This document shows positions 2,427 through 42,098 of a stretch of 42,098 nucleotides of DNA, one piece after another. Each line of letters opens with the position of its first letter. The first letter of the stretch is position 1. The translations under genes were made by a program, and so were the position numbers. Source of the stretch: a virus. The notes beneath the pieces are model-generated. The model saw nothing but the letters and a program-made list of their open reading frames with translations. It ran no database searches and was not told the DNA's origin. The stretch lies in IMG/VR virus record IMGVR_UViG_3300045135_000709, positions 1 to 42,098 of that record, one strand, 5' to 3'.

Positions 2427-3524
2427 TTAAGAGTATGTCAAACTCAATCGATCATCCCAAACTTTTGTAAATTCGGCAGTTCCATCTGCCCAAATAATTT
2501 CGTAATCATCACCAGATTGTTGATCAACTCGTTTAATACGCCATTTAGCCTCAGATGTAGCAGTACCCGGTAATGCTTCACCGATATAAATGTAGTTTCC
2601 TACAGTATCAATCAATCTGTTATATTGTACTTCCAAATCTGCTTTCAACCTGTCTAATATGTTTACAAAAGATTCAACAATAAATTTCTTCTTTGTTGGA
2701 TCGTATATCAAAATACTATCACCAACAATCGAAGAAAGTCTCGTTTTATCAACGTCTGCATTATCAAGTATCTTATACGAACCACCACCGCCAAGAGACG
2801 CTAATGATTTCTGAACATTTGCTAATGTTCTTTCCACATTCTGATTGACGACTGTTGTGTTTTCTGTCAATCGTTCGTTAAACTGTTTTACTGCTTCTTC
2901 AAACTCGGTGCGATAGTCTTTACCGTCATCACCTTTGGGACCTTGAGGACCTACTTCGCCTCGTTCGCCTTTGTCCCCTTTATCTCCTTTGTCACCTTTG
3001 GGTCCTTTCTCGCCCCTAGGTCCTGTATCGCCCTTGGGTCCAGCTGGTCCCACAGGACCGGGCAATCCATCAGCACCCTGTAAACCATCAGCTCCCCGTA
3101 AACCCTGAAGCCCTCTTTCACCTCTCTCACCACGAGGTCCTTGAATGCCTTGATCGCCTTTCTCACCCTTGTCACCCTTGGGACCTATCTCCCCTTTGTC
3201 ACCTTTCGGTCCTTCAGGTCCTGCAATTCCTGCATCGCCTTTTTCTCCCTTTGGACCTTGTGGACCGACATCGCCTGTATCTCCCTTATCGCCCTTGGGT
3301 CCAGTCTCGCCTCGTTCACCCTTCTCACCTTTATCGCCTTTAACTCCTTTGTCGCCTTTTGGACCTTTTTCTCCACGAGCACCTTGAGGACCACGAGCAC
3401 CTTCTGGTCCTTCTTTCATACTCAGTTCTTCAAGACGTGCTTCAATAATCTCTTTTTGTTTCTTTAACTGTTCTTTCGTGTAGGCAAGAGCAAAAGCAGT
3501 CGATATTGTATCAATCTTGTTCAT
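2427..3524 (-). CDS. collagen-like fibre protein with 55 uninterrupted Gly-X-Y triplets
   Basis: A 365-residue protein in three parts. Residues 1-38 are a helical, Lys/Glu-rich head ([18 protein letters not shown]), probably coiled coil. Residues 39-203 are 55 perfect Gly-X-Y triplets with no interruption. Residues 204-365 begin with a second helical stretch ([16 protein letters not shown]) and end in a small probable beta domain that could be a trimerisation or receptor-facing tip. Proline is mostly at X (GPK, GPQ) and only once at Y (GLP, residues 153-155). Lysine fills Y in 22 triplets, often in KGD or KGE pairs, which are known to stabilise collagen helices by interchain salt bridges. The ATG overlaps the 3' end of the portal gene by 14 bases. 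Phage collagen-like proteins are usually fibres. Here the attachment point, head or tail, is unknown. Confidence 0.93.
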
Positions 3525-25700: not shown

Positions 25701-27526
25701 CCTGCATCAACTGAGGTGAGATATGTACCAAGAATAACTTTTAATTGTTCGTATGCCTGAACAGTTGCATCCAGTTCGTTTTGACCCAAAAGATCAATAT
25801 AACCATTATTGAATATCGAGAAGTATGCTCGTTGTGCTGTGTATGTTGCACTGTTACCACCATACTTGATATCGTATGTTAATGCGTCAAGAATATAACC
25901 AACGTCTCGTTTACAGGTTGTCTGATCGTATGTTATATTAGGGAATATCGAATTGGCATATGCAACTGTTTGTGTTACAGCAGTTGACTTGATAGCGTTA
26001 ACATCAGAAGCAACACCACTGAACACTAGTGGTGTACTAGGTATGCTAGTAGGATCACTTGCCTCAATAGATGCTATGATAACATCTATCAGACCATTGA
26101 TTCGTGTACGTTCGGTTGCAGTAGTGACGTACTTCGCAATGATCGTCTTAAGTTCTTCGTATGCCGATGCTGTCGCTACAGTCTCGCCAGAACCTAATAA
26201 CTTGGTGTAGATATCGGCTTGACCGTCTAGATTCTGATCTGGACCATAAAGATCAACACCTTTCCAGTACGAACGTGCTACAGTTTCTGTGCCGTAGTCT
26301 ACATCGAACAATATGTCGTGTGATAATGCATCGACGATATAACCTAAATCACGGACACAAGCATCTTGATTGTATTCGAGAGTGTCGTAATTATTCTCGA
26401 TAAAGGTTATGATCTGAGTTTGTATCTTTCTTCGATTGGCTTGTAATGCTTGTTGTGCGGCACGTTTGTCAAACGTGATACTAGCAGAACCAGTGAAGTT
26501 AATTGGATCACCATCATAATCACCGTAATCACTTGACTGATTGATTAGGTCAGTGATCTCATCAATTCTTTCTTGAATGAAAGTTTTGTCGGCATCAAGC
26601 GTTGCGGCATCTTTAAGAAGTCCGCCAAGATATTCAATAGACTGTATCGTGTATGTTTTTTGTTCTTCAGTAACTTTTGAAGACACTGCACGACGATAAG
26701 ATAAACCAGCAGTTGTACTATTATAGTTTGTATTTAATTGCAAGTCAAGACAAATTGCATCAATAATTAATGCCGTGTCACGTGCACACTTTGCTTGATC
26801 AAAGTTGCCTTCGGGTACAGTAAGACTTGTATTAATGTAATCGATTACCGCAGTCTGAATATCGGCTTTGTTTAACTGTATAAGACCCGATGCAGAGTCT
26901 GCGTCTGTCTGCGCCTCGATCGGTGGATCAGTGAAATACAAAGGTGTAGGATCTTCGTCATAGAAGATACCAATGATCTCTGTGAATCCATTTACGATTC
27001 GCTGAGTTGCTGTTGGGTTTTGCTCTACTAATGGAGCAGAAATCATACCGATTCGTTCTTCGTTGATTGAAGCACGAGTCTGGTATTTTTGCTCGTTGGT
27101 TACTTTGGCGGCATTACCACGACGATAAGATAAGCCAGCAGTAACCGCATTATAGTTTGTTTCAAGTACCATGTCATAACGTACCGCATCCATGATGAGA
27201 TGCAAGTCACGCTCACACACGACTTCATTAAACTTGAACGATTGCTTGGCTGTTACAACTGCTACCGCAGAGTCTAGTGTTCGAAAAGAGTTTAAAAGAG
27301 AACGACCGTCATTACCGTACTGACCTGATTTAGAAACATAATAGACGTTATCGACCTGCTCTGAGCCGATCGTTTCAATCGTCACTTCACCTTCACGATT
27401 GCGTTTTAGAAACGCTTTACCGTCATGAGTGTTGATCGCAATTTCGCCAAAGTCTATCTCATTAAGAGTCGGTGCTCTTCCTGGTATAGAACTTCTCGGG
27501 AGTAAAATGCGTTTTCTTGTCGTCAT
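22715..27526 (-). CDS. giant mosaic tail-fibre-like protein (1603 aa): repeat modules, beta-helix, FG-GAP-like propeller
   Basis: A 1603-residue protein. The N terminus has a phage-tail signature (LNEIDFGEIAINTHDGKAFL). Four diverged modules of about 145 residues follow, each with a Cys-x-Arg-Asp core: VCERDLHLIMDAVRYDM (about 102), CARDTALIIDAICLDL (245), CVRDLGYIVDALSHDI (389), CKRDVGYILDALTYDI (537). Residues about 700-900 look like a right-handed beta-helix (STIFLKSGDYIVNNPIKL, ISGIGLRIDG-type rungs), a fold common in fibre tips and depolymerases. Residues about 985-1450 have FG-GAP/integrin-like propeller blades (DDGYLVVTEPSD, GNYIAVTALNQHQ, GDFIAVGASGRRE). No catalytic residues are recognisable. 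A CATAAATA late promoter lies 26 bases upstream. A long receptor-binding or side-fibre role is inferred. Confidence 0.82.
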   Translation of the reverse strand: MTTRKRILLPRSSIPGRAPTLNEIDFGEIAINTHDGKAFLKRNREGEVTIETIGSEQVDNVYYVSKSGQYGNDGRSLLNSFRTLDSAVAVVTAKQSFKFNEVVCERDLHLIMDAVRYDMVLETNYNAVTAGLSYRRGNAAKVTNEQKYQTRASINEERIGMISAPLVEQNPTATQRIVNGFTEIIGIFYDEDPTPLYFTDPPIEAQTDADSASGLIQLNKADIQTAVIDYINTSLTVPEGNFDQAKCARDTALIIDAICLDLQLNTNYNSTTAGLSYRRAVSSKVTEEQKTYTIQSIEYLGGLLKDAATLDADKTFIQERIDEITDLINQSSDYGDYDGDPINFTGSASITFDKRAAQQALQANRRKIQTQIITFIENNYDTLEYNQDACVRDLGYIVDALSHDILFDVDYGTETVARSYWKGVDLYGPDQNLDGQADIYTKLLGSGETVATASAYEELKTIIAKYVTTATERTRINGLIDVIIASIEASDPTSIPSTPLVFSGVASDVNAIKSTAVTQTVAYANSIFPNITYDQTTCKRDVGYILDALTYDIKYGGNSATYTAQRAYFSIFNNGYIDLLGQNELDATVQAYEQLKVILGTYLTSVDAGIQTKVENLLDIIIKAIEQSRDGTYTLGEFFNNNSTRDEIYQYNVPTGLAAGYDELVFPNLITLGYKVIYNELYNAHQTFNLNESQRLTIIRSASAVARNQGTDSTIFLKSGDYIVNNPIKLPPKTSIIGDALRSTTIRPKNVDSDIFWADNAVYIKEITFRDHQDGAACLAFDPRVDSPGAGPFITQSPYVQNCTSLTSSGIGLRIDGSKVSGLRSMVLDAFTQFNAGGIGVYLLNRGYAQLVSLFTVSTTTSVLTETGGQCSLTNSNSSFGKYGLVSRGGSKSLYNGGLHATYDQNEDLIRINTIITQDSADYTLNIGDFKKPNYNDAIRFDSDNYYYTVLDVSDEITQDWASSRNSDETETFAVNTKVNNALFGYSTSMSKDDGYLVVTEPSDAAGKAEVYAKDFIGGLPQWIYQALIQPTTPFGSLSGDEEFGYNAVINGTGNYIAVTALNQHQTDATVTSRNNGAIYTFRRTGESWSQDAFIALPGVTDRDRNFGQSMDMSEDALTIVAGTNNDLTDGGQGAVYVFLRADASSNTWTQQQRLTCPEGSSFPVGLPTVSISEDGQDLIVAWSGPLNKIYYYQRNIDNIFILAQIIIPTSNYQTARDYRLRLNPSSDYFIMGDGNAPRGYFSNALTDPATGVPSYLQRKQYLNNVTFSNSPARITTTDTDVKFDSDFALNSTLTILGSASNDGDYLITGTTSNTITFNGSFASTGADTQVQVFLKNSGTAELFRFEEGQWVTEEVIEAPRELRDRVYYGANVDINERGLLASVGMNPSRDSDSCEVSVLERAAKDWTRVARLEPKTSQDTSIANDRYGSTSHWGTSIGGSGDFIAVGASGRRETEANASTQYGALFTYYSILPETGSYELTISPPLNRQLLRYQNCSFHQRSLITASGHTFEYVGSGTNMFTAIPQNGGIPIKENEVVFDSAEADTPNFGLVYFTATDELGDFRIGEDLRINREEGTITGVTFDRSLFAVLTPFILALEGGS
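22721..22728 (-). promoter_or_regulatory. strong Shine-Dalgarno fixing the GTG start at 22713
   Basis: AAGGAGGA on the minus strand, about 8 bases before the GTG of the 132-residue gene and inside the final codons of the 1603-residue gene. It decides an otherwise doubtful non-ATG start and couples the two genes. Confidence 0.7.
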
Positions 27527-27551: not shown

Positions 27552-27559
27552 TATTTATG
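27552..27559 (-). promoter_or_regulatory. late promoter, CATAAATA, for the 1603-aa gene
   Basis: CATAAATA on the minus strand overlaps the stop codon (TAA) of the 373-residue gene and sits 26 bases before the ATG of the 1603-residue gene, the same arrangement as at gp13. Confidence 0.65.
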
Positions 27560-28676
27560 CGTAAATGCCACAGTCGATCAATTCAAACTCAAGAACAGGA
27601 ACATCTAGTTTAGGCGTTCGAATACCTGGATATATGTACCAATATGCAGAGTCTCTTGAAACTGGATTTGCTGGATCGTTCTCATATCGCATGTATGCAA
27701 TAGCCAACGCAGAATCACCTAATGCAAATCCCGCACCATTAGCAAGTTCTGGTGAGTTATAAGGTGTATTGTCTGCGATAACAATCTGTTGATCTTCAAT
27801 CAATAATTGCGTTGTGCTAAGATTGGTTGTTTCACCCTGTACAATCAGATCTTTAGTGACAACAAGATTACCATCAATAGTGGTAGAATCTAACGTTGTG
27901 ATGCCACCAACATCAAAATTATTAATAACACGAAACGAATTGGTATCAGTTTGTGCCTGAAGAACACCACCGTAGGTCAGTTTAACAGAACCGCCCGAAT
28001 CAATCTGTACGAGTGTATTGCCTGAGTTGTCAAATATTTGTAAAGGCGTGCCGTCTGCTTTTAAAATAATATCGCTTGTTCTTACTTTCTCGATAATACC
28101 TTCAGTAGAGACACGAAGAATATTGATCGTTGCTGAATCGGCTAAAAAGTTATCAATTTTCTTATCACTGTCTACAAGTATGGCACTGTTTGCTGTCAGT
28201 GTGCCTTGAGGGTGATTGAGAAGATCGGTAAAATACTTACCGCCGATTACGTCTATTCGTGTTGAGTAACCGCTGTCATTGTTAGCACCAGTTGCAATGT
28301 AAAGACGATCACCGCCGTTACCGAATCCATCAGTAAGATTGTCGGGAAGAAACGAATACGCTAACTCACCCTGCTGTAGATAAACAGGTTCGCCTTGTGT
28401 ACCCGATCTTCGAATAAGAATGTTTGTGTGATAAGAATCACTAGGGTAAGTCTTACCATCAACAACATCAACTTGATATTCGCCTGCAACCCAATTGCCG
28501 CTGGCGCTATCGTATATTAATGCAGTGCCTTCACTTTTCGCCGAAGTGTCGACACCAACAATATTGTCAAAGTCTGCATAAGGTCCTATTACGACTGTGT
28601 CTAGAGGTGTGCCGACGATAACTTTCTTAACGTAAGTTCTATCGCCAACCATTACCTTATAAGTCTTTGTAGCCAT
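27555..28676 (-). CDS. tail-fibre-like virion protein (373 aa)
   Basis: A 373-residue protein starting MATKTYKVMVGDRTYVKKVI. Its middle carries a tail-protein motif (GEPVYLQQGELAYSFLPDNL, GGDRLYIATGANNDS), close to the GELAYS/GELAIN motif that labels many phage fibres. Residues about 265-325 (TIDGNLVVTKDLIVQGETTN, then QQIVIADNTPYN) match the module at 140-205 of the 694-residue protein, so the two genes share a duplicated fibre segment. No enzyme motif is present. It lies 10 bases after the 116-residue gene, and its stop codon overlaps the promoter of the 1603-residue gene. A fibre or fibre-adaptor role is inferred from composition and neighbours. Confidence 0.76.
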   Translation of the reverse strand: MATKTYKVMVGDRTYVKKVIVGTPLDTVVIGPYADFDNIVGVDTSAKSEGTALIYDSASGNWVAGEYQVDVVDGKTYPSDSYHTNILIRRSGTQGEPVYLQQGELAYSFLPDNLTDGFGNGGDRLYIATGANNDSGYSTRIDVIGGKYFTDLLNHPQGTLTANSAILVDSDKKIDNFLADSATINILRVSTEGIIEKVRTSDIILKADGTPLQIFDNSGNTLVQIDSGGSVKLTYGGVLQAQTDTNSFRVINNFDVGGITTLDSTTIDGNLVVTKDLIVQGETTNLSTTQLLIEDQQIVIADNTPYNSPELANGAGFALGDSALAIAYMRYENDPANPVSRDSAYWYIYPGIRTPKLDVPVLEFELIDCGIYA

Positions 28677-28686
28677 GAAAATAACC

Positions 28687-29037
28687 CTATGTTACAGATG
28701 GTGTTACTGTTATTTTCCCCTCTAGAACTCTTTCGACCACGTCAGACACACCATCATTGTGTGTTATTTCTACATCATAAACATATCTTTTACGAGGATT
28801 TAACAGGTCGGTTTGAGCAGACGACAATGCAAGCGTAATTTTTCCATCTGTAGCAGGCGAGAGTACAGCAGTCGAGAAAGTGGTTTTATCACTATCAACT
28901 GCATCGTAACTGGGCGCCAATTTTGCGGCTACGGTATAACCATTTAGATCTTTGGCAGAACGATCGGGATTACACAGATGTACTTCAATAAGCGCATCTG
29001 TGCCTTGATCGATTACCAAATCTTCGTAGTGTGCCAT
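28687..29037 (-). CDS. small probable virion protein with a single beta domain (116 aa)
   Basis: A 116-residue protein (MAHYEDLVIDQGTDALIEVH) that reads as one immunoglobulin-like or BppU-N-like beta domain: DQGTDALIEVHLCN, LNGYTVAAKLAPSY, KITLALSSAQTDLL, KRYVYDVEITHNDG, RVLEGKITVTPSVT. The fold guess comes from this strand pattern, which resembles N-terminal baseplate-attachment domains of phage fibres. I cannot name a family with certainty. It is the first gene after two tandem late-promoter octamers (29056-29074) and is followed by the 373-residue fibre gene, fitting a head role for a fibre operon. Confidence 0.7.
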   Translation of the reverse strand: MAHYEDLVIDQGTDALIEVHLCNPDRSAKDLNGYTVAAKLAPSYDAVDSDKTTFSTAVLSPATDGKITLALSSAQTDLLNPRKRYVYDVEITHNDGVSDVVERVLEGKITVTPSVT

Positions 29038-29066: not shown

Positions 29067-29074
29067 TATTTATA
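29067..29074 (-). promoter_or_regulatory. late promoter, TATAAATA, for the 116-aa fibre operon
   Basis: An exact T4-type late octamer on the minus strand in the 41-base gap between the oxygenase-like gene and the 116-residue gene, 30 bases before the latter's ATG. Confidence 0.75.
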
Positions 29075-29078
29075 AGAA

Positions 29079-29765
29079 TTATGCTTCAATATCTTCGATA
29101 ATCCAATCTTGAATTCCCATAGATATTTCGTCCATAGACAGAGTAAAGGCAATTGTCATTCGAAGACAGTCAGTTGAGGCGGCGTGATAACACCATGTTT
29201 CTTTTGGTTGTGCATATGGTCCGAAATATCCAGCTTTACATTGCCAACCTTTTTTGTCGGGAATGGTCACAATCTCATTTTTATCCCAGTCCCAATACTT
29301 GAACCAACCGTCGCCCGTTTCACTCCATGTGAAAATAAAGTTGTATGCGGGTGCGTTTGCGTTATTATGCCAAGAGATATAGCCACCTGGAGGATAGACA
29401 GCAAACAAAGCGTTTCTCTTCAAGCAAAACGTTGTTGCTAGTTTTTCAATGACACCTTTCAAGTGTTGATTGATCTCACCACTTACAATCTGTGAATCTG
29501 TACCATCAGAAAACTGAATGTTCTGTGCACTAAAAGAATGTGCAACGATGATCTCCGGAAAACCCTCATGTCTTTCTCTCTGATTCATAATGTGTTTAAA
29601 GTAATCTTCACCCACATATTTTTCACGATCTTGTTCGTTATGATTTCGATGACATGTGAGTTTTACTTTTTTATAGTTCTCACTTTCAATAAACCACTCC
29701 GCCTCTTTAAGTATATCAAGAGCATAATCGTTTAATGGTATGTCTTTCATTCCTGTTCTAATCAT
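29079..29765 (-). CDS. 2OG-oxygenase-like (double-stranded beta-helix) protein with atypical HxN motif
   Basis: A 228-residue protein that looks like a jelly-roll oxygenase: the approach PPGGYISWHNN (H133-N134-N135), a central strand YNFIFTWSETGDGWFKYWD, and a C-terminal WCYHAASTDCLRMTIAFTL with H194 and R202. The order His ... His-8-Arg mirrors 2OG-Fe(II) dioxygenases, but the usual HxD/E is HxN here. I recall similar HTN/HNN variants in proteins of marine T4-like phages, so this is probably a family trait rather than decay. Whether it binds iron is uncertain. Substrate is unknown. It overlaps the glycosyltransferase-like gene by 8 bases, and both lie behind the giant repeat gene, suggesting joint action on a common product. 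Confidence 0.65.
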   Translation of the reverse strand: MIRTGMKDIPLNDYALDILKEAEWFIESENYKKVKLTCHRNHNEQDREKYVGEDYFKHIMNQRERHEGFPEIIVAHSFSAQNIQFSDGTDSQIVSGEINQHLKGVIEKLATTFCLKRNALFAVYPPGGYISWHNNANAPAYNFIFTWSETGDGWFKYWDWDKNEIVTIPDKKGWQCKAGYFGPYAQPKETWCYHAASTDCLRMTIAFTLSMDEISMGIQDWIIEDIEA

Positions 29766-30507
29766 AGACTTCGCTCTTTGCCTTTATGTTTGAATAATGT
29801 CGAACTACAACTGGTTTCTTATTGTGAGGATAAAGATAACCGTTGAAAAAATTCCATCGTGCATCGTCTTCAAATATAGCGACTTTCAGATCTTTATATT
29901 TCGGTTCACGGTTTAACAACCACCATAATGAAAATTGATCCCATCGTTTGAATGAAGCGGGATAGTTTTCTAAGTCTTCAGTACCGTCAGCCTTTCTTGG
30001 CCACCATTCGCCATTATATTGTTTAACAGTCAATACATACCAATCTTCCATAAACTCCTTGACAAGCGGATTTGCCATGTTGTACAAGCAAACTCCTCCG
30101 CAGAGTTCAAAGCCGCCTTTTGATCCGTCCTCTTTAGTTGCTCCCGGAAAGTAAACTTCGGCATAACAATAATGTCTTTCGGGTGGCAGACCTGTAAACA
30201 CCAAATCATTATCACCCAACTCATCAAACACCTTTGCTATATCTTCATGTTCAACTTCACAGTCTGCATCAATATAAAATGTTTGATCGTATGGACTCCT
30301 TGCCATACCATCTAGCTTGGCTCTTTTGTGTGCATTGACAAATTCAACTCTATCCGCACACGACTCTTGACCATCTAAAAATCTTTCTTCTGTGAACAAT
30401 GTCACATGTGCATTCGGATCAAAATATTTGATCGACTCAATTAGATTGATTGCAGATAGAAAGAAAAACTTTTTAGTCGACGCTACAACAACATAACCTT
30501 TAGTCAT
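29758..30507 (-). CDS. glycosyltransferase-like protein (GT-A fold, DxD motif)
   Basis: A 249-residue protein with a GT-A nucleotide-sugar transferase layout: an N-terminal strand-helix (TKGYVVVASTKKFFFLSAIN), a second strand HVTLFTEERF, and the metal-binding DxD (D80-A81-D82) in TFYIDADCEVEHEDI. Downstream are acceptor-side elements FELCGGVCLYNMANPLVKEF and WDQFSLWWLLN. It has no signal peptide or membrane helix, so it is cytoplasmic. The ATG at 30507, with GGGA before it and overlapping the upstream stop (ATGACTAA), is preferred to an in-frame TTG at 30519. The gene is sandwiched between a small unknown protein and an oxygenase-like protein. The target could be a fibre protein, phage DNA or a host polymer. 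Confidence 0.75.
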   Translation of the reverse strand: MTKGYVVVASTKKFFFLSAINLIESIKYFDPNAHVTLFTEERFLDGQESCADRVEFVNAHKRAKLDGMARSPYDQTFYIDADCEVEHEDIAKVFDELGDNDLVFTGLPPERHYCYAEVYFPGATKEDGSKGGFELCGGVCLYNMANPLVKEFMEDWYVLTVKQYNGEWWPRKADGTEDLENYPASFKRWDQFSLWWLLNREPKYKDLKVAIFEDDARWNFFNGYLYPHNKKPVVVRHYSNIKAKSEVYD

Positions 30508-30961
30508 CTTTATTCCCAAATAATCCTAATTCTTCACCAATGATTAATGATACTAATGCACTCACTTCTAACTCATTTTGTGCCCTTCGAATTCTAGTCC
30601 GAAGTGTTTTATTATTAGAATTTTTTACTTCAGGAATTTCCATCGCACGAATTTTGGTAGAAAATAGACTTTCCAATTGAGCAGATTGTTTCTTCTGCTC
30701 ATGCTTAACTTCGTCTTCAAGTCTCTTCTTTTGTTTTTCTTCGTGGCGCTTTTGTGTATATCTATCGATAGTATCTAAACCTATAGCATCAATAACTTCG
30801 TTATATTGAGGATTCATTGATCCATCACGAAGTAATTTTGTAACTGTCAACACGTCTTTTTTTGTTTTACCACCTTCAAGATCAGTAATTCGTATACACT
30901 TTAAAACTGATTTATCGGGTACTTCCCAAAACGCATTATCTAAATAACGATAACTTCTCAT
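30500..30961 (-). CDS. unidentified helical protein (153 aa)
   Basis: A 153-residue basic, largely helical protein starting MRSYRYLDNAFWEVPDKSVL. The first 45 residues look folded (CIRITDLEGGKTKKDVLTV). About residues 65-95 form a strongly charged helix likely to be coiled coil (RYTQKRHEEKQKKRLEDEVK), and the C terminus is another helix ending in EELGLFGNKDD. I do not recognise the family. An upstream in-frame TTG at 30979 is rejected because GAGGAG (30967-30972) is ideally placed for the ATG at 30961. The gene begins 11 bases after the stop of the giant repeat gene, so it may be a chaperone or assembly partner for that fibre, by analogy with fibre-assembly proteins next to fibre genes in T4. 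That is inference only. Confidence 0.72.
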   Translation of the reverse strand: MRSYRYLDNAFWEVPDKSVLKCIRITDLEGGKTKKDVLTVTKLLRDGSMNPQYNEVIDAIGLDTIDRYTQKRHEEKQKKRLEDEVKHEQKKQSAQLESLFSTKIRAMEIPEVKNSNNKTLRTRIRRAQNELEVSALVSLIIGEELGLFGNKDD

Positions 30962-30966
30962 GCTCA

Positions 30967-30972
30967 CTCCTC
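30967..30972 (-). promoter_or_regulatory. Shine-Dalgarno fixing the start at 30961
   Basis: GAGGAG on the minus strand with a 5-base spacer to ATG at 30961, overlapping the last bases of the giant gene. It rules for the 153-residue form over a longer TTG-started one. Confidence 0.7.
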
Positions 30973-33900
30973 TAAGCAACTCTTACATATAATGTCCAGG
31001 TCTCTACTGGTAATGGTGGCGGTCTCAGTTCCTCAATAGCGCCGTATGTTCTATCTATAGCAGTTTCTTTCACGTATTGTGTAGCATATGCTTCACCATC
31101 ATAAGTTAATTCTTCGATATTACCTTCGTACTCACCAGTATAAACGACGTACTCTTCTCTTTGATATGATCCTACATATTCGCTTTCGTAACCACCTTCA
31201 TAAAATCCGACATAGTTACCATCGTACTCGGCGCCGTATGTACCATCATATCCTTCTTCGTCGATACCTTCATAAAATCCTGAATAGTCTTCGAGTGCTT
31301 CGCCGACATATTCACCAACATATGGGTATTCAACTTCACCGCCATATTCACCTTCGTAAGTGGTGAAATCAACTCTTTCATAAAACCCAGTATATTCTCT
31401 TTCAATGTCACCTTCATAAAATCCAGTGTAGGTTTCATCGGATATCGAATCATACGTGCTTGAATAAGTTTCATCGGTTTCAGCACCATACTCACCTGTA
31501 TAATTTTCAAAATCAACTCTCTCATAACCACCACCATATGTCTCGGGTCTTTCGCCGATATAATCACCGATATAGTCTCCTACATAATCTGCTTGATAAT
31601 CAGCAGAGTAGGGTTCTTCATCGACTCCTTCATACAGTCCTTCATATGTTATGTATAAGCGTGAGAGATAATCGCCTGTGTATGAGCCAATGTAATCTGC
31701 TCCTACTTCACCAATATATTCACCGCCGTATGTTTTATCAACGGCTCCACCGTAAGTTCCATCAAATGGTTTTGTAATTTGTCCAGTGTATAGTCTTTCG
31801 TATACTACGGTATAAGGCGTTTCTTGACCAATGCCTATGTAGTCTGCATCGAAACTCTTAGACACGTCTGTGACATATATGCCAGTGTATTCAGAAATGT
31901 ATGGAGTATCTACTTGACGAGTGTAAAGACCTGAGTAATCACCTTCATAAACAGTGTTGTATGCACCAATATAATCTGACTCATATACACCGCTATAGTC
32001 GCCAGTGAATGATACAAAACTTTCTCTTGTATATGAACCAGTGTAATCTGTGGTATATGTACCAACATAGTCACCGCTGAATGAGCTAGAGAATGATTCT
32101 TCTTGTCGAGTGAATCGTGTTTCGAAATCTATTCCAGTATATTGACCCGTATAGTCTTCTGAAATGATTACATCTCTTTCTTTGGTATACTCGCCTTCAT
32201 ATTGACCAGTATAATCGCTTTCATAGAATCCTTCATACGCTCTTATGTATTGACCGGTATAGAAACCAGAATAAGTGCCTTCATACTGACCAGAGTATTG
32301 TGTACTAAAAACTTTATCTACTTGTTGGGTATAGTCTCCTATATAAGTTTGACCGTACGACACAAACGTTGTTACAGTGTTCTGATCAAAATAAACTGGA
32401 TCGCCTTCTTGCAATGTGCTTGCGGTTATTGAGGCACTAGCCCAAGCAAATTGTGTGTATGTACCTCGATCATATCTCGTCGCCGACGCTGAAGTCCATG
32501 TAATTCCGTCAAGTACCATGTTAATAAACGCCGATGAAGGCGTACTGCCATCTCCGTCATTAACGTACAGCCACAATTCCTGAGAACTTGGAACAACTAC
32601 TAATTCTACTGTATCACCACCAAATGTTGGCACAGTTGAAGGTATTAAAAATGCCGCATACTGTGAGATATAGTTAGGAGGTGGCGTCGAAACAAAAACT
32701 TCATCAACAGTGTGAGTTGAGTCGGCATTGACGCTAGTATATGACACCACTCTTTGACTATCATATGATGATTCGTATTGACCAACATAATCAGTTTCAT
32801 AAAAACCTTCATAGAATCCAGTGTATTGCTGTTCGATATCTCTGTCTACGCCAGTTTCATAAGTGCCTTCATATTGAGATGAATATGTGCCAGTAAATTG
32901 TTTTGCAACAAGTCTGTCATATTGACCCGTATAATTTCCGGTGAATGTAACGTCTCTTTCACGTGAATATTCACCAGAGAATGAAGCATCATAAAATCCT
33001 AGATAAGGTGTGCCATATGTTCCAGTAAATGTTTTTTCATAAAAACCTGAAAAGGTTTCTTCAACGGTGGCTTCGAAGAATGCATCGTATGTCTCGCTCT
33101 GAATTCCTGTGAAAGTGCCTACATAAGTTTCTTCGGCGTCAGCATCATATGAACCAGTATATGTTTTAGCAACATCAAAAGATACTTGACCAATGTATTC
33201 CGATGAGTATGGCTTTTCAACTTCTTGTGCATAATCACCAGTATATGATGCTGTATAAGTTCCTTCGAATCCACCTATGTAAGTTTCAGTGTACTGTCCA
33301 GTTCGGCTTCGATCGAACTGACCTTCATATGTGCCAATATAATCACCAGAAAAAGTGCCGGTGTATTCTTCATACTGATTTCTTACGAAACCTGTAGTGT
33401 AAGTTCCATCGAAAGTTCGTTCTACAGTAACAAAGTTAATGCCTTCGTATGACTCAGGATCTTGACGAGTGTAATCACCAATGTAATCTGTACCATAAGT
33501 TTCTTGTACAGTTTCAGTGTATGTTTCTTCGTCCAATCGAGTGTAAATTGTCTGATAGTCTTCTTCAAGAACACCAGTGTAGTCGCCGACATAATCACCA
33601 ATGTATCCTGCGCTGTATTGTCCTACATAATCACCTTCATAAGATGCATCATATTGACCAGTATATTCTTCTTCGATCTGACGACCATAAAAGCCAAGAT
33701 AAGGTTCTTCTATTTGTCCAGTGTAGTCGCCGATATATTCTTCTAATTCACCACGGAAGTATGAACCTACATACTCGGCAAAATCGGCACGTTCGTAATT
33801 GCCGATGTACTGTTCTTCATCTAGACCAACATAATCGCCAATATAAGGTTCTTCAACAACAGAGGCGTATCCACCGATGTATTCTTCTAGCTCTGCGCCT

Positions 33901-36900
33901 AGATATGTGCTACCATATGTTTTATCTACAACACCAATATAATTTGCGGCATAGTCTTCAGACTCAGCAGGTAGACGGGTGCGTGTATAAGTTTCACCTT
34001 CGTAATTTGCTATATAAGTCTCAAGTGTTATGGGTCCTAATTCTTCAGTTTGATACGTGCTTTCATAAACGCTTTCGCCGTATGAGCCTTCATATGTGGC
34101 GAGATATTGTGCTTCATACAATGCTTGGTATTCACTCTGATATAAACCAGTGTACGTTTCGCCGTATGATGATGTGTATTCATCGCCTTCATACGTTGCT
34201 ATGTAACTGCCAACATAAAGTGATTCGTAGTTTGGAACGTAGTTGCCAATGTATGTTGCAAGATAAGTTGCGGCATAACCACTTACATATTGTGTAACAT
34301 ACAGACTCTGATAAACGCCTTCATAGTCAGACGAGTAATCTTCTGAAATGATTCTTCCATAATCGCCTGTGTAAGTTTCAAGGTCAACAGTTTCGTAAAT
34401 ACCTTCGTAATTACTTTCATAGAATCCACTGTACAAGCCTGCATAGTCTTCAGAATCAATACGTCCATACTCACCAACGTAGTTCTCTGAATCGTCACGC
34501 TGATATTGACCGGTGTAGTTTTCTGCTTGATCTCTTACATAAAGTCCTGCATAATCTTCGGATATAATTCTTTCGTAAAGACCTGCATAGTTTTCAAAGT
34601 CTACACGGCCGTATACACCTTGATATGTGGTAAAGTCGGTTCTTTCGTATTCGCCCGAATACGTTTCTTCCTGTGCTCGCTCATACTGACCGATATAACC
34701 TTCGAAGTCCACTCGCTCATATGATCCGGTGTAACCTTCAAAGTCTACACGACCATACTCACCAGAGTAAGTCTGATCTTCCAATCTCTCATAGAAACCT
34801 TGATATGTTTCAGTAATATCTCTTTCATAAAGACCAGTGTAAGTCTCGTCAACTTCTCTCTGATACAATCCTTGGTATGAGGTGAAGTCTACACGACCAT
34901 ATGTGCCTGTGTAATTCTGTTCATCATCTCTTTGATACTGACCTGTATAATTCTCAGCAATACTACGTTCATACAATCCAGCATAATTTTCTAGATCTGC
35001 TCTCTCATAGAAGCCTTCGTAAGCAGTGAAATCAACTCGACCATATTCGCCAGTGTATGTTTCGGGAATATCTCGCTGATACTGACCAACATAATTTTCA
35101 TCTTGACTTCTTTCGTAGAATCCAGTATAATCTTCCTGTATGTCCCTCTGATACTGACCAACATATCCTTCAAAGTCTACACGACCATACTCACCAGAAT
35201 AAGTCTCATCCTGTAATCTTTCATAGAAGCCTGCATAGTCTTCCGGAATATTTCTTTGGTATTGGCCAGTATAACTCTGCTCTTGGTCACGCTCATATAA
35301 ACCAGAATAGTTTGTGAAGTCGACTCGGCTATAAACACCTTGATAAGTTTCAATATCATCACGCTGGTACTGACCAGTGTAGTTTTCAGCGATGTTGCGT
35401 TCGTATTGACCAGTATAGTTTTCTAGATCTGCTCTCTCATATTGACCGACATATCCTTCAAAGTCTACACGACCATATTCGCCAGTATAGGTTTCATCAA
35501 CGGTTCTCTGATAGAAACCTTGATAATCTTCAGGAATGTTACGCTGATATTGACCAGTATAGTTTTCTAGATCTTCACGTTGGTAAAGACCTTCATATGT
35601 GGTAAAGTCAATTCGAGTATACTGACCAGAATAATCTTCTGCGATGTCACGTTCGTAAAGACCAGCATAGTTCTCTGAATCGGTTCGAGTGTATTGACCA
35701 GTGTAGTCTTCGGGAACAACACGACCATATTCACCTGTATATGTTTCAGAAACGATTCTTTCGTAGAAGCCACCGTATGTTTGATCTACATCTCTCTGAT
35801 ACTGACCAGTATATTCTTCAACCTGATCACGAACATACAAGCCAGCATAAGTTTCATCATCAACTCGCTGATAGGATCCGACATAACTTTGATCTTCGGA
35901 TCTTGTGTAAAGACCGTCGTATGATTCGCCCGAAGTTCTTACATAAAGACCAGCATAGTTTTCACTATCAACACGACCGTAGGTGCCGATATAGTTTTCA
36001 TCGATGATTCTTTCATACTGACCAGAGTAGTTTTGGTCATCAACTCTTTGGTACTGACCAGTGTACGACTGCTCTTGATCTCTTGCATAATCACCAACAT
36101 AAGTCTCGTCAATCGCTCTCTGATACTGACCACTATAATTTGTGAAATCAATTCGAGTATAAAGACCATCGTAATTTTCGTTGTCGACTCTCTCATACAA
36201 ACCAGAATAGTTTGTAAAGTCCACACGACCATATGTACCAGTATAAGTTTGGTTTTCTAGTCTGTCGTAAGAGCCAGTGTAAGTTTCTGCTATGTCACGT
36301 TGATACTGACCGGTGTAGGTTTGATCAACTGTACGAGTGTAATTACCAACATAAGTTGTAAAATCAACACGACCGTAAGTACCTTCATAAGTCTGATTTA
36401 CAACACGATCATAAGAACCTTGATACGTTTCGGTGATAGCACGTTCGTACTGACCAGTGTATGATTGATCTTGTACTCTTTCGTATTGTCCAGCGTATGA
36501 AGTGAAGTCTACACGACCGTAGGTGCCTGTGTACAATTCACCATCTGTTCTTTGATACTGACCAGTGTATGATTGATCTTGCAAACGATCATACTGACCG
36601 GTGTATTGTTCTTCCTGAGTTCGAGTGTAAGATCCGATATAACTTTGTTCTTCGGTTCTTTCATAGAAACCAGCGTACAGTTCTTGAGCACTTCTCTCAT
36701 ACTGACCAGTATATGATTGATCTTGTGATCTCTCATAAGAACCTTGATACGTTTCTTCGTTCTGTCCAGTGTAAATGCCAGTGTAGCTTTCAATAACCTG
36801 ACCAGTGTATTGACCTGAATACTGCTCTTGAATTTGACCTGTATACTGACCCGAATATTGCTCTTGAACCTGACCAGTGTATTGACCCGAATAAGTTTCA

Positions 36901-39900
36901 TCCTGACTTCTTTCGTATGTGCCAGCATATGTTTGATCAACGCTTCTTTGATACTGGCTGATATAAGTCTCGTTAATCGCTCGCTCATACTGTCCAGTAT
37001 AAGTCTCGGATTGATCACGACCATATGTACCAGTGTATAGTGCAGTGTCGTTTCGCTCGTATTGACCGATATATGTTACAGGATCAAGACGTTCATATTG
37101 ACCGGTGTATGATTCTCCAACAGTTCTTTCGTACAAACTCGTGTACGTTTGATCTTGAGTACGAACATAATCACCAGAATAGGTTTCACTCTGGCTTCTT
37201 TCGTAAAAGCCCAAATACGTCTCTTGAACTTGACCCGTGTATTGACCAGTGTATTGCTCTAGAACAATACCACCGTAGCTTCCTACGTAAGACTGTTGAA
37301 CTTGTCCGGTATATTGACCAGTGTATGTCTCGTTGATAGCACCTTCATACTGACCGGTATATTGTTCACCCTGTTCTCTTTCATATTGACCAGTATAAGT
37401 TTCGTTGACTTGACCAGTGTAACCACCAATGTAAGATTGGTCTACACTTCTCTCATAGAAACCCGAATAAATTTCATCGATTTGGCCAGTGTATTGACCC
37501 GAATAACTTTCTTGAGGAACACCGGTGTATTGTCCTGTGTATTGTTCAAGATCTTGTCGAGTGTACAATCCAGAGTAAGTTTCTAGATCTGTTCGAGTGT
37601 ATCCACCAGTATAACTTTGACTCTGACCTCTTTCATAAGATCCCTGATAAGTTTCAGTTACTTGGCGTGTATAACCACCAGTGTAAGTTTGATCAATAGA
37701 GCCTGTATACTGACCCGTATATTGTTCTTGTACAGCACCTTCATACTGACCGGTGTATTGTTCAAGAATGTTTCCTGTATATTGACCAGTGTATGCGCCG
37801 TCATAAAATTCGTTTATTTGACCCGCATATTGACCTACATATTGTTCTTGTACTTGACCTGTATATTGACCAGTGTATGTCTCTTGAGGAACACCAGTGT
37901 ATTGTCCTGTATACGAACCTTCATAAGTTTCGTTGACTTGGCCAGTGTATTGACCAGTGTAAGTTTCTCCGACAACACCGGTATATTGTCCCGTATACGA
38001 CTCTTGAGGAACGCCCGTGTATTGACCAATGTATCCACCAACGTATTGTTCTACAAGAACACCTTCATACTGACCAGAATAACTTTCCTCGATGACACCA
38101 GTGTATTGACCAGTGTACGTTTCAGCAACTTGTCCGGTGTACTGACCAGTATATTGACCAGTATATGATCCGTCGTAAGTTGATGTATACTGTTGCAGAT
38201 AAGTTTGGTCTATCGCAGAATCTTGTTGACGAGTATAACTTCCAAGATACGTTCCTTCATATGTCTCAGAGATTGTCTGAGTTTGGGTTCGAGTATACAG
38301 AGCAGAGAAAGAACCGTCATAAAACTCATCTAGTGTTGAATCTTGTTGGCGTGTATAACCGCCTTGATAGATTCCTTCATATGTCTCAGAGAGTGTCTGA
38401 GTTTGGGTTCGAACATAACTACCAATATATGATCCTGTATAGAACTCTGTTAAAGTAGAATCTTGTTGACGTGTATAACCACCAGTGTAGGACGAACTGT
38501 ACGTTTCATTTAATGAAGAATCTTGCTGTCGTTCATATGATCCAGTATATTGTCCTTCATACGTTTCATTTAACGTCGAATCTTGTTGACGTTCATATGA
38601 TCCAGTATATTGACCTTCATATGTCTCGTTGAGAGTTGAATCTTCTTGGCGCTCATAACTACCAGTGTAGAATCCAGTATAAGTTTGATTTAATGTGGAA
38701 TCCTGTAGTCGTGTATATGAGCCAGTGTAAGAACCTTCATATGTTTCATTTAACGTCGAATCTTGTTGACGTGTATAACCACCCTCATACGTTCCTGCAT
38801 ATTGTTCCGAAATAGCCGCATCACGTTGACGAGTATAGCCACCTTCGTAAGTTCCCGCATATTGTTCTGAAATTGCCGCATCTCTTTGGCGTGTATAAGT
38901 GCCAGCATATGTACCTACATATGAACCAAGATAATCTTCAGAAACGCTACCACCGTAGAAACCACTATACGAACCTTCATAGTTTGCAAAATCGACACGA
39001 ACATATGATCCCGTATAGGGCTGATCTTCTGAAGCGGTTCTTTGTTTAACATAAGAGCCTTCGTATTGCTGTGCTACTTGACCCGTATACTGCCCAGTAT
39101 AGCCACCCGCATATGTTCCTTCATATGTTGCGGCGGTATTGTCAAAAAGAACAGTTGCACCTTGTGTTAAAGTGCCGGAGTCTACTGAAGGACTAGTCCA
39201 AGCAAATTGTGTGTATGTACCTCGATCATATCTCGTCGCCGACGCTGAAGTCCAGGTGATACCATCAACAACAACGTTTATAAAGGCACTTGAAAGTGTA
39301 TCACCGTTACCATCATAAACGTACATCCATAACTCCGAAAAACTTGGAACAGCAGTAAAATCTACTGTGTCGCCACCAAAGGTTGGTACAGATGATGGCG
39401 AAATACCCGCCGCATATTGACCAATATAATTCGGAGGTGGTGTAGAAAAGGATACTGGTCCTACAGTATGAGTCGAGTTAGCACTGCCGCCAGTATAAGA
39501 TCCAACGTATTGTTGACTTATCGTCGAATCTTGTTGACGTTCATAAAAACCTTCGTAAAAGCCAGTGTATGTCGAAGAAAACTGACCGGTGTAATCCCCG
39601 ATGTAAGTTTCTTGTACAATGCCAGTATAAGAACCGGTATATGTTCCGGCATATGTCTGAGTTTGTGTTCTAAAATAACCACCAGTGTATATGCCCGCAT
39701 ACTGACCACTGTATTGCTGAATGACATCGCCCGTATATTGACCAATGTAACCACCCGCATAAGTTCCAACATACTGTTGTAAAACGACACCAGTGTATTG
39801 ACCAATGTAGCCACCCGCATAAGTTCCAACGTATTGTTCTGGAACAACACCAGTGTATTGACCAGTATACTGTCCAGTATAACTACCCGCATACGTTTCT

Positions 39901-42098
39901 TGAACATCACCAATGTATTGGCCAGTGTATTGGCCAGTGTAACTACCTTCGTAAGTTTCTTGAGCTTGACCAGTGTACTGACCCGTGTACTGACCAGTGT
40001 ATGAACCTGTGTATGATTCTTGAACTTGTCCAGTGTACTGACCAGTATATTGTCCAGTGTAACCACCGGTGTATGATTCTTGAACTTGTCCAGTGTACTG
40101 ACCCGTGTATTGCCCAGTATAACTTGACGTATAAGTTTCTTGAACTTGTCCCGTGTATTGACCAGTATAGAAACCAGAATACTGGCCTTCGTAAAGTTCT
40201 TGTACAGCACCCGTGTACTGACCAATGTACCCGCCGATGTAAGATCCTGCATAGTTTTCTAAAATAACACCAGTATATTGACCAGTATATTGTCCAGTGT
40301 ATTGTCCGATATAAGTTTCAAGCACTGAGCCAGTGTATTGACCAGTATAGCCACCGGTATAACTTCCCGCATATCCTTCTTGAATTACACCAGTATATTG
40401 TCCGATGTATTGTCCTGTGTAAGACTGGTTGTATGTTGTGCCTGAATATGAACCAGTATAAGTTTCATTTAATGAAGAATCTTGTTGACGTTCATATAAA
40501 CCGGTATAACTTTGATCAACCGAACGAGTGTAGCCACCCGTGTAAGTTTGAGTTTGTTGACGAACGTAACTACCTGCATAAGTTCCTTCATAAGTCTCAT
40601 TTACTGTTCGAGTATATCCACCAGTATACGTTTCGTTTAGTGTGCGGGTGTATCCACCTGTGTATGATTGATCAACTGTTCTTTCGTATTGGCCAGTATA
40701 TTGACCGATGTACGATTGATCGACTGTTCGAGTGTAGCCGCCCGTATATGACTGATCAACAGTTCTTTCATAAGAACCTTGATAAGTTTCTTCTACAGTT
40801 CTACCGTATTGGCCAGTGTAGCCACCAATGTAAGTTTGATCTACTGATCGTACATATGTGCCTTCATACGTTTCATTCTGTAATCGAACATACGAACCCT
40901 GATAGGTTTGATTTTCTGAACGAGTGTATTGGCCTGTGTAACTCTCACCTACAACGCCTTCATAAACGCCTGAGTATTGCTCTTGAACTTGACCGGTGTA
41001 AACACCTGTGTATGTTTCTTGAGGAACACCAGTATATTGACCAATGTATGATTCGGTATTGCTACCCTCGTATGTGCCTTCATACGTTTGATTTTGTGAT
41101 CTTTCATAACCACCGGTATATGTTTGAGTCTCTTGACGCTCATATTGACCAGTATAGGCTTCGTTAATCTGACCTGTGTATTGACCTGTATAGGTTTCTT
41201 GATCAGTTCTAGTGTACTGACCAGTGTATGACTCGTTGATTTGACCAACATATCCGCCAGTATAAGTCTGATCCTGTAAACGAACATATTGACCTGTGTA
41301 AGACTGATCAACAGATCTTTCATAAGAACCTGTGTATGACTCTCCTTCGGTTCGAACGTAACTTCCTTCGTAAGTTTGATTCTGTGATCTCTCGTATGAG
41401 CCGATGTAACTCTGTTCGATTTGCCCAGTGTAAAGACCGGAGTAACCTTCAAGAACAATACCCGTGTATTGACCGGTGTAAGGTTGAGCAACTTGACCTG
41501 TATAAGAGCCTGTGTAAGTTTCGTTGACCTGTCCGCTGTAAACCGAGATATAGTTTTCAGAAATTTGACCAATATAACTGCCAATGTAATTTTCGTCAAC
41601 ACCGCCTGAATAAACGCCAGTGTAACTTTCATTGATCTGTGATACATACTGTCCTGTGTATGGCTGATCTATTTGACCTGTATATTGACCAGTGTATTGC
41701 TCAATGATTTGACCAGTGTATTGACCAGTATATTGTTCTGTCTGCTGGCGCTCATAACTACCAGTGTACGTCTGAGTTTGCTGTCGCTCATAAGTACCTT
41801 GATATGTTTGTGTTTCTTGTCTTTCATAGAAACCTTCATAAGTTTCTGCTTGATCACGACCATAATCACCTGCATAATTCTCGGTAACCTGACCAGTATA
41901 CTGTCCTGTATACGCTTCATTGATCTGACCAACATAAGAACCTTGGTAGACTTCTTCGTCTTGGCCGGTATAGAATCCTAAATAAGTTTCTTGAACATTA
42001 CCGGTATAACTTCCACTGTATGTTTCATTAATTTGTCCTTGATACTGACCAGTATAAGTCTGATCGACCTGACCTGTGTATTGACCAAGATAACTTTC
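30972..42098 (-). CDS. giant Tyr/Gly-repeat protein, 5'-truncated by the window (at least 3,708 aa)
   Basis: The frame ending with the stop at 30972-30974 stays open to the right edge. I read the part above 40325 codon by codon and found no stop and no ATG, GTG or TTG, so the true start lies outside. The GTG at 40325 is an internal valine (YTGSVLETY). Almost the whole product is built of Tyr-x-Gly-x-Tyr-x-(Gly/Arg) units of 12 residues, with 20-residue variants. The N-terminal part seen is Thr/Gln-rich and mostly neutral (ETYTGQYTGQVQ), the middle is charged (ENYAGLYERDIA) and the C-terminal quarter is acidic and irregular (EEYIGDYTGQIEEPY). Two globular inserts of about 120 residues interrupt it. 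No cysteine was seen. The last residues (RPPPLPVETWTLYVRVA) are non-repeat. It heads a run of small modification-type genes. Family unknown to me; a fibrous virion or secreted adhesin is inferred. Confidence 0.93.
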   Translation of the reverse strand, partial: ESYLGQYTGQVDQTYTGQYQGQINETYSGSYTGNVQETYLGFYTGQDEEVYQGSYVGQINEAYTGQYTGQVTENYAGDYGRDQAETYEGFYERQETQTYQGTYERQQTQTYTGSYERQQTEQYTGQYTGQIIEQYTGQYTGQIDQPYTGQYVSQINESYTGVYSGGVDENYIGSYIGQISENYISVYSGQVNETYTGSYTGQVAQPYTGQYTGIVLEGYSGLYTGQIEQSYIGSYERSQNQTYEGSYVRTEGESYTGSYERSVDQSYTGQYVRLQDQTYTGGYVGQINESYTGQYTRTDQETYTGQYTGQINEAYTGQYERQETQTYTGGYERSQNQTYEGTYEGSNTESYIGQYTGVPQETYTGVYTGQVQEQYSGVYEGVVGESYTGQYTRSENQTYQGSYVRLQNETYEGTYVRSVDQTYIGGYTGQYGRTVEETYQGSYERTVDQSYTGGYTRTVDQSYIGQYTGQYERTVDQSYTGGYTRTLNETYTGGYTRTVNETYEGTYAGSYVRQQTQTYTGGYTRSVDQSYTGLYERQQDSSLNETYTGSYSGTTYNQSYTGQYIGQYTGVIQEGYAGSYTGGYTGQYTGSVLETYIGQYTGQYTGQYTGVILENYAGSYIGGYIGQYTGAVQELYEGQYSGFYTGQYTGQVQETYTSSYTGQYTGQYTGQVQESYTGGYTGQYTGQYTGQVQESYTGSYTGQYTGQYTGQAQETYEGSYTGQYTGQYIGDVQETYAGSYTGQYTGQYTGVVPEQYVGTYAGGYIGQYTGVVLQQYVGTYAGGYIGQYTGDVIQQYSGQYAGIYTGGYFRTQTQTYAGTYTGSYTGIVQETYIGDYTGQFSSTYTGFYEGFYERQQDSTISQQYVGSYTGGSANSTHTVGPVSFSTPPPNYIGQYAAGISPSSVPTFGGDTVDFTAVPSFSELWMYVYDGNGDTLSSAFINVVVDGITWTSASATRYDRGTYTQFAWTSPSVDSGTLTQGATVLFDNTAATYEGTYAGGYTGQYTGQVAQQYEGSYVKQRTASEDQPYTGSYVRVDFANYEGSYSGFYGGSVSEDYLGSYVGTYAGTYTRQRDAAISEQYAGTYEGGYTRQRDAAISEQYAGTYEGGYTRQQDSTLNETYEGSYTGSYTRLQDSTLNQTYTGFYTGSYERQEDSTLNETYEGQYTGSYERQQDSTLNETYEGQYTGSYERQQDSSLNETYSSSYTGGYTRQQDSTLTEFYTGSYIGSYVRTQTQTLSETYEGIYQGGYTRQQDSTLDEFYDGSFSALYTRTQTQTISETYEGTYLGSYTRQQDSAIDQTYLQQYTSTYDGSYTGQYTGQYTGQVAETYTGQYTGVIEESYSGQYEGVLVEQYVGGYIGQYTGVPQESYTGQYTGVVGETYTGQYTGQVNETYEGSYTGQYTGVPQETYTGQYTGQVQEQYVGQYAGQINEFYDGAYTGQYTGNILEQYTGQYEGAVQEQYTGQYTGSIDQTYTGGYTRQVTETYQGSYERGQSQSYTGGYTRTDLETYSGLYTRQDLEQYTGQYTGVPQESYSGQYTGQIDEIYSGFYERSVDQSYIGGYTGQVNETYTGQYEREQGEQYTGQYEGAINETYTGQYTGQVQQSYVGSYGGIVLEQYTGQYTGQVQETYLGFYERSQSETYSGDYVRTQDQTYTSLYERTVGESYTGQYERLDPVTYIGQYERNDTALYTGTYGRDQSETYTGQYERAINETYISQYQRSVDQTYAGTYERSQDETYSGQYTGQVQEQYSGQYTGQIQEQYSGQYTGQVIESYTGIYTGQNEETYQGSYERSQDQSYTGQYERSAQELYAGFYERTEEQSYIGSYTRTQEEQYTGQYDRLQDQSYTGQYQRTDGELYTGTYGRVDFTSYAGQYERVQDQSYTGQYERAITETYQGSYDRVVNQTYEGTYGRVDFTTYVGNYTRTVDQTYTGQYQRDIAETYTGSYDRLENQTYTGTYGRVDFTNYSGLYERVDNENYDGLYTRIDFTNYSGQYQRAIDETYVGDYARDQEQSYTGQYQRVDDQNYSGQYERIIDENYIGTYGRVDSENYAGLYVRTSGESYDGLYTRSEDQSYVGSYQRVDDETYAGLYVRDQVEEYTGQYQRDVDQTYGGFYERIVSETYTGEYGRVVPEDYTGQYTRTDSENYAGLYERDIAEDYSGQYTRIDFTTYEGLYQREDLENYTGQYQRNIPEDYQGFYQRTVDETYTGEYGRVDFEGYVGQYERADLENYTGQYERNIAENYTGQYQRDDIETYQGVYSRVDFTNYSGLYERDQEQSYTGQYQRNIPEDYAGFYERLQDETYSGEYGRVDFEGYVGQYQRDIQEDYTGFYERSQDENYVGQYQRDIPETYTGEYGRVDFTAYEGFYERADLENYAGLYERSIAENYTGQYQRDDEQNYTGTYGRVDFTSYQGLYQREVDETYTGLYERDITETYQGFYERLEDQTYSGEYGRVDFEGYTGSYERVDFEGYIGQYERAQEETYSGEYERTDFTTYQGVYGRVDFENYAGLYERIISEDYAGLYVRDQAENYTGQYQRDDSENYVGEYGRIDSEDYAGLYSGFYESNYEGIYETVDLETYTGDYGRIISEDYSSDYEGVYQSLYVTQYVSGYAATYLATYIGNYVPNYESLYVGSYIATYEGDEYTSSYGETYTGLYQSEYQALYEAQYLATYEGSYGESVYESTYQTEELGPITLETYIANYEGETYTRTRLPAESEDYAANYIGVVDKTYGSTYLGAELEEYIGGYASVVEEPYIGDYVGLDEEQYIGNYERADFAEYVGSYFRGELEEYIGDYTGQIEEPYLGFYGRQIEEEYTGQYDASYEGDYVGQYSAGYIGDYVGDYTGVLEEDYQTIYTRLDEETYTETVQETYGTDYIGDYTRQDPESYEGINFVTVERTFDGTYTTGFVRNQYEEYTGTFSGDYIGTYEGQFDRSRTGQYTETYIGGFEGTYTASYTGDYAQEVEKPYSSEYIGQVSFDVAKTYTGSYDADAEETYVGTFTGIQSETYDAFFEATVEETFSGFYEKTFTGTYGTPYLGFYDASFSGEYSRERDVTFTGNYTGQYDRLVAKQFTGTYSSQYEGTYETGVDRDIEQQYTGFYEGFYETDYVGQYESSYDSQRVVSYTSVNADSTHTVDEVFVSTPPPNYISQYAAFLIPSTVPTFGGDTVELVVVPSSQELWLYVNDGDGSTPSSAFINMVLDGITWTSASATRYDRGTYTQFAWASASITASTLQEGDPVYFDQNTVTTFVSYGQTYIGDYTQQVDKVFSTQYSGQYEGTYSGFYTGQYIRAYEGFYESDYTGQYEGEYTKERDVIISEDYTGQYTGIDFETRFTRQEESFSSSFSGDYVGTYTTDYTGSYTRESFVSFTGDYSGVYESDYIGAYNTVYEGDYSGLYTRQVDTPYISEYTGIYVTDVSKSFDADYIGIGQETPYTVVYERLYTGQITKPFDGTYGGAVDKTYGGEYIGEVGADYIGSYTGDYLSRLYITYEGLYEGVDEEPYSADYQADYVGDYIGDYIGERPETYGGGYERVDFENYTGEYGAETDETYSSTYDSISDETYTGFYEGDIEREYTGFYERVDFTTYEGEYGGEVEYPYVGEYVGEALEDYSGFYEGIDEEGYDGTYGAEYDGNYVGFYEGGYESEYVGSYQREEYVVYTGEYEGNIEELTYDGEAYATQYVKETAIDRTYGAIEELRPPPLPVETWTLYVRVA
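32365..32740 (-). repeat. embedded globular domain, copy 2 (C-terminal side), within the giant gene
   Basis: About 120 residues without the Tyr/Gly repeat: STHTVDEVFVSTPPPNYISQ, VPTFGGDTVELVVVPSSQEL, then DGITWTSASATRYDRGTYTQ. It matches copy 1 at 39131-39491 closely, including a 57-bp perfect DNA match (32442-32498). Trp-rich and beta-like. Family unknown. Confidence 0.85.
34450..35615 (-). repeat. 144-bp super-repeat marked by GRVDF
   Basis: Every fourth 12-residue unit carries Gly-Arg-Val-Asp-Phe or a close variant. The DNA marker begins at 34597, 34741, 34885, 35029, 35173, 35317, 35461 and 35605, exactly 144 bp apart, with a diverged copy in register at 34453. Another 144-bp run occurs with markers at 36227, 36371 and 36515. 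Confidence 0.9.
34450..37700 (-). repeat. 36-bp tandem coding repeat (12-aa YxGxYxR units)
   Basis: About 90 tandem 36-bp units encode 12-residue repeats such as ENYTGQYERNIA and QTYEGTYGRVDF. The register is strict at least from 34453 to 36515, where marker positions differ by exact multiples of 36 with no indel. Codons vary freely (Tyr TAT/TAC, Gly GGT/GGC/GGA) while Tyr, Gly and Arg positions are held. Confidence 0.92.
38221..38940 (-). repeat. 60-bp tandem coding repeat (20-aa units with RQQDSTLNET)
   Basis: Twelve in-register 60-bp units encode 20-residue repeats of the type TYEGQYTGSYERQQDSTLNE. In the part at 38221-38460 units alternate between RQQDST and RTQTQT forms, giving a 120-bp dimer with long near-identical stretches. 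Confidence 0.92.
39131..39491 (-). repeat. embedded globular domain, copy 1 (N-terminal side), within the giant gene
   Basis: About 120 residues: STHTVGPVSFSTPPPNYIGQ, VPTFGGDTVDFTAVPSFSEL, then DGITWTSASATRYDRGTYTQ. It shares a 57-bp perfect DNA match (39198-39254) with copy 2. It separates the QQDST array from the YTGQ array. Confidence 0.85.
39721..40440 (-). repeat. 60-bp tandem coding repeat (20-aa YTGQ-rich units)
   Basis: About twelve in-register 60-bp units encode 20-residue repeats such as QVQESYTGSYTGQYTGQYTG. Two adjacent units at 39741-39840 are nearly identical, pointing to recent duplication. The 20-residue unit is the 12-residue unit plus two YTGQ tetrapeptides. Confidence 0.9.

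Follow-up and report, generated by a model that had tools for sequence, protein, structure and literature searches.

The cassette and its genomic setting

IMGVR_UViG_3300045135_000709 is a 42 kb uncultured virus contig, and the stretch analysed, referred to here as the window, covers its full 42,098 nucleotides. The portal, tail sheath, tail tube and terminase genes around the cassette match those of T4-like phages. The large terminase shares 74% identity with that of Phage C48C1 (Kyanoviridae) and ~47% with those of cyanophages. A cyanophage origin was considered and set aside, as psbA was absent from 17/17 long related records. The cassette lies on the minus strand and is followed by the first features of the next unit:

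30972..42098, minus strand: giant [Y/F]-x-x-x repeat protein, C-terminal part (frame open to the window edge; tetrad statistics)
30500..30961, minus strand: small, a charged protein of 153 aa (ribosome-binding site and conservation in all loci)
29758..30507, minus strand: GT, 249 aa, predicted GT-A glycosyltransferase, glycogenin/GT8-like (motifs and structure model)
29079..29765, minus strand: OX, 228 aa, predicted double-stranded beta-helix, prolyl-4-hydroxylase-like (motifs and structure model)
29067..29074, minus strand: putative T4-type late promoter, TATAAATA, between OX and p116 (sequence)
28687..29037, minus strand: p116, L-shaped-tail-fibre-assembly-like (PHROG phrog_1084 and phrog_3304, 2.4e-22 and 1.1e-09)

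The tight coupling of small, GT and OX directly behind the repeat gene, claimed in an earlier note on this DNA, was confirmed. An AGGAG motif was located 5 nt upstream of the small ATG (30961). The GT ATG (30507) falls within small by 8 nt, and an overlap of equal length joins OX to GT, so that the three genes are translationally coupled. Further fibre genes were found downstream of the cassette at 27555-28676 and 22715-27526. At a distance from these, a tail-fibre/collagen-like protein with 18-nt tandem repeats (2427-3524, minus strand) adjoins the portal gene, an unusual place.

The giant repeat protein

The repeat gene ends with a stop codon at 30972-30974 and its 5′ end lies beyond the window. 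It had been listed as a smaller gene with a GTG start at 40325; this start is unsupported, the frame running on to the window edge to give at least 3,708 codons. The estimate of 'thousands' of Thr, Ser and Tyr side chains was too high for one chain, as the first-listed 3,117 codons contain 502 Tyr, 384 Thr and 219 Ser. In relatives, a non-repeat N-terminal domain was found further upstream in the protein, and the conserved C-terminus, ETWTLYVRVA, is a motif common to them. Many genomes carry two tandem repeat genes.

Tyr or Phe at a spacing of four residues exceeded composition shuffles (z>5) in 75/78 non-redundant loci. Seven loci with a weak tetrad signal corresponded to short repeat-family members, a 6-residue variant (L047) or a cut contig (L051). 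In the variant (L047:3-4466), the aromatic period is 6 (YIDNVN-type) instead of 4, and small, GT and OX still adjoin. The unit in the window is mostly Y-[T/E/S]-G-[Q/S/T], chiefly Y-T-G-Q, and among relatives [Y/F]-[T/A/V/S]-[G/R]-[N/D]; the tetrapeptide repeats are nearly free of Lys. The first position is divided 58/42 between Tyr and Phe, with ~90% Phe in some relatives. The fourth is mostly Asn/Asp family-wide; these residues are rare in the window, where Q/S/T dominate. Because Phe takes the first position in many relatives, Tyr appears dispensable there, which weakens the idea of a strictly tyrosine-directed modification. An N-glycosylation sequon (N-Y-T) was dropped as an explanation, since the window repeats have Gln at the position concerned. 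With every repeat position variable, no universal acceptor residue is apparent. Judged solely by its position and neighbours, the repeat protein is probably a tail fibre.

Structure predictions for GT and OX

The GT model had a pLDDT of 95.7. By VIA-align its best match was glycogenin (Z 17.1, 193 residues, 3.8 Å, 19% identity), followed by LgtC (14.6), UGGT (14.5) and the PBCV-1 capsid GT (14.1). Residues D81-A-D83, D191-Q192 and H238 were invariant in 43 sequences and are read by us, independently of superposition, as the probable GT8 metal/catalytic motifs. The model strongly supports a retaining GT-A fold like that of glycogenin and LgtC. The Pfam GT8 profile (PF01501) matched neither the window protein (E<=1) nor any of the 43 members (E<=0.1), so GT is termed GT8-like rather than a member of GT8. 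It resembles glycogenin in its DxD motif, predicted fold and best structural match, and differs in escaping the Pfam model and in its low identity. The earlier description of a DxD glycosyltransferase-like protein was upheld by the invariant D81-A-D83 and the glycogenin-type fold prediction. Glycogenin itself glucosylates tyrosine.

For OX (pLDDT 94.0), the best VIA-align matches were bacterial P4H and PHD2 (Z 10.9, ~154 residues, rmsd 3.3-3.6 Å), and viral collagen prolyl hydroxylase scored Z 10.1. The model strongly supports a prolyl-hydroxylase-like double-stranded beta-helix. H133, N135, H194 and R202 were invariant in 45 sequences. R202, 8 residues past H194, corresponds to the Arg/Lys that follows the second His in 2OG oxygenases, and H133, H194 and R202 fall at the expected strand positions of the predicted secondary structure. 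The canonical HxD/E...H iron triad was not found: wherever the motif was read, all distinct sequences have Asn in place of its Asp. For this reason OX lacks a defining feature of canonical 2OG oxygenases, and with the Asp ligand missing in all members it may be inactive. OX thus shares its predicted fold, two His and Arg positions with bacterial P4H, PHD2 and the Chlorella virus vCPH, but differs from prolyl 4-hydroxylases in having HxN rather than HxD and in showing no match to them at the sequence level. Of the oxygenase fold first proposed, the double-stranded beta-helix was retained in the prediction, whereas the metal site departs from the expected one. The phage genomes also carry OX paralogues at other sites (L184:18234-18917, L184:40112-40801, L205-L216), all with H-x-N; a tail-tube gene neighbours one of them and a NifU-like gene another in C48C1.

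Searches of Pfam, PHROG and NCBIfam returned no usable family for small, GT or OX. A profile search of PDB sequences returned nothing for GT and OX and chance-level matches only for small.

The small protein and repeat composition

The small protein, which looks helical from its sequence, is conserved across dozens of diverged relatives. When distances in repeat composition were compared with divergence, the correlation was highest for small (r 0.66), followed by GT (0.47), OX (0.42) and p116 (0.33). In a partial-Mantel test, GT divergence explained no extra repeat composition once small was accounted for, although common descent and the adjacency of the genes confound such correlations. Within that limit, the values fit a helper that reads the repeats, and small is a putative repeat-specific chaperone or adaptor.

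Linkage across relatives

Searches of IMG/VR with GT, OX and small gave 234 testable loci carrying the same block, of which 78 were non-redundant (GT <90% identity). Dozens of diverged relatives conserve GT and OX as well as small. Linkage was scored over all loci with GT; contig ends apart, none lacked small, OX or a repeat-family gene upstream. Read by eye, the weakest loci had short repeat members, another repeat period, intervening genes or truncated contigs. The reverse search, queried with the repeat protein's N-terminal domain alone, the part without repeats (7-sequence alignment), gave 80 loci. Wherever a contig continued beyond the repeat gene it carried small, GT and OX, the only exceptions being contigs that end within this block. 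The conservation of linkage in related phages that the earlier note had proposed as a check was thus seen in both directions. Contig ends aside, there were no relatives with the three genes and without the repeat gene, the case that the note had named in advance as refuting its proposal. In the sequences compared, then, the repeat gene, small, GT and OX always occur together and in one order. The p373 gene downstream is missing or changed in many loci, the repeat gene never.

C48C1 was the only one of 50,697 phage records to match any of the four genes. A scan of genome contigs placed the cassette in a single MAG contig, JAAXIF010000028.1 (L182, L183). This 142 kb contig was assigned to a Sphingobacteriales bin; it has the complete cassette with two repeat genes and a second OX, and is probably a mis-binned phage contig.

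Late promoters and the extent of the operon

The window contains three copies of TATAAATA, roughly the number expected by chance; all are intergenic and on the coding strand, and one lies between OX and p116. Across relatives, [T/C]ATAAATA was found between OX and p116 in 74/76 non-redundant loci. The cassette interior is depleted of this motif, with any site in just 10/76 loci. The late promoter after OX together with the depleted interior indicates that the repeat gene, small, GT and OX form their own late operon, and by these sequence signals p116 opens the next transcription unit. p116 is not restricted to the cassette, being present in 41 phage records that include pelagiphages and cyanophages. 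In five isolates with p116 in place, the region around it held no repeat gene, small, GT or OX. The earlier view that the link rests only on gene order has therefore been superseded by two-way co-occurrence, late-promoter bounds and joint absence in relatives that keep p116.

Proposed function and alternatives

Since the repeat protein is never encoded apart from small, GT and OX, hydroxylation and glycosylation of the fibre by the phages themselves is probable. In our judgement the balance tips slightly towards an operon that makes a repetitive fibre-like virion protein and modifies it in both ways. In such a scheme, small would bind the repeat chain and keep it soluble or present it, and OX would hydroxylate side chains along the repeats; the Asn and Asp that mostly fill the fourth repeat position across the family are classic targets of such enzymes. 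GT would then add sugar from a nucleotide-sugar donor to native Thr, Ser or Tyr or to the new hydroxyls, and the outcome would be a fibre of variable length bearing both hydroxyls and sugars. For the fibre-modification cassette as first proposed, the conserved linkage, late-promoter bounds and predicted folds speak in favour, while HxN in OX and the non-obligatory Tyr count against it.

An enzyme that merely shares the fibre operon could act elsewhere. GT might modify the O-chain, a polysaccharide of the host surface, with the exclusion of rival phages as one possible purpose. No glycosyltransferase family is commoner in pelagimyophages than GT8, which lies in their host-recognition cluster and has been so interpreted (PMC7029224), and LPS-acting GT8 enzymes such as LgtC match the GT model. 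We nevertheless regard this as unlikely, given that searches from either side pair GT strictly with one virion-type gene, and given the late-operon position; the cassette is also devoid of other LPS genes, and OX and small would be left unexplained. It is likewise improbable that the enzymes modify another virion protein, such as a neighbouring tail fibre or baseplate component, with the repeat protein a mere operon partner. The further fibre genes downstream and the OX paralogue by a tail-tube gene would suit this arrangement, but the downstream genes vary (p373) where the repeat gene is constant, and a late promoter separates OX from them.

Other alternatives concern the chemistry. The Asn in place of the HxD Asp in every motif read would be accounted for if OX were a catalytically dead double-stranded beta-helix serving in binding or folding, with GT the sole enzyme. 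We give this little credence: the cassette proteins keep both His and the presumed 2-oxoglutarate-binding Arg without variation, and human AspH provides a precedent, functioning with two His ligands only. Pairs of a TET-like oxygenase and a glycosyltransferase are known in phages and C48C1 encodes a DNA methyltransferase, so that OX and GT could in principle be a DNA hypermodification pair (methylcytosine hydroxylase and DNA glycosyltransferase). This is very improbable, however, for a late fibre operon that contains no methyltransferase and whose top fold matches are protein hydroxylases and glycogenin-type glycosyltransferases.

Comparison with described systems

Among characterised systems, the closest analogue of the operon is in mimivirus, where the lysyl hydroxylase/glucosyltransferase L230 occurs with viral collagens and R707 is a glycogenin-like glycosyltransferase (PMC9614988; also PMC9546862). 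As with L230, the phage operon is predicted to supply a virus-encoded hydroxylase and glycosyltransferase for a long repetitive viral protein. In L230, however, the domains are fused, the substrate is Gly-X-Y collagen, the target is Lys and the virus is eukaryotic, whereas the phage operon has separate genes, tetrapeptide repeats almost without Lys and an extra helper protein.

Within phages, GT8 genes in the corresponding region of pelagimyophages were assigned to host O-chain modification (PMC7029224), and for the 2OG oxygenases of cyanophages a connection with DNA repair or 2OG levels has been drawn (PMC3037559). The host recognition cluster of HTVC008M occupies the same genome position and has fibres and a p116 homologue, and its group has GT8s or 2OG oxygenases, but the repeat protein, small, GT and OX of the cassette phages are absent from it. 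The OX profile recognised none of the annotated HTVC008M oxygenases. The pelagiphages HTVC008M (L297:21443-23682) and Mosig (L298:24740-28595) each have, between fibre and neck genes, four genes with an annotation as 2OG-type oxygenase or phytanoyl-CoA dioxygenase, and from these clusters oxygenases near fibres may be general.

The open-access literature contained no account of such a fibre cassette or of C48C1 and no precedent for a hydroxylated and glycosylated phage fibre; subscription journals were outside the scope of this search. We tentatively suggest that the operon is of an undescribed kind, combining a tetrapeptide fibre, an oxygenase with a non-canonical His-x-Asn iron site, glycogenin-like addition of sugars to Tyr/Thr or new hydroxyls, and a repeat-reading helper. 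That all of this holds, with the fibre hydroxylated and glycosylated and the cassette widespread in uncultured aquatic T4-like phages, is a joint proposition we rate clearly below even chances. If true, widespread phages of this type would carry a dedicated system for hydroxylating and glycosylating their own giant fibre, and host recognition and virion hiding in them would read differently. The fibre would represent a new class of repetitive glycoprotein, OX would offer a concrete oxygenase with a His-x-Asn site for study, and a role in host LPS modification would have to be ascribed to phage GT8 genes with caution.
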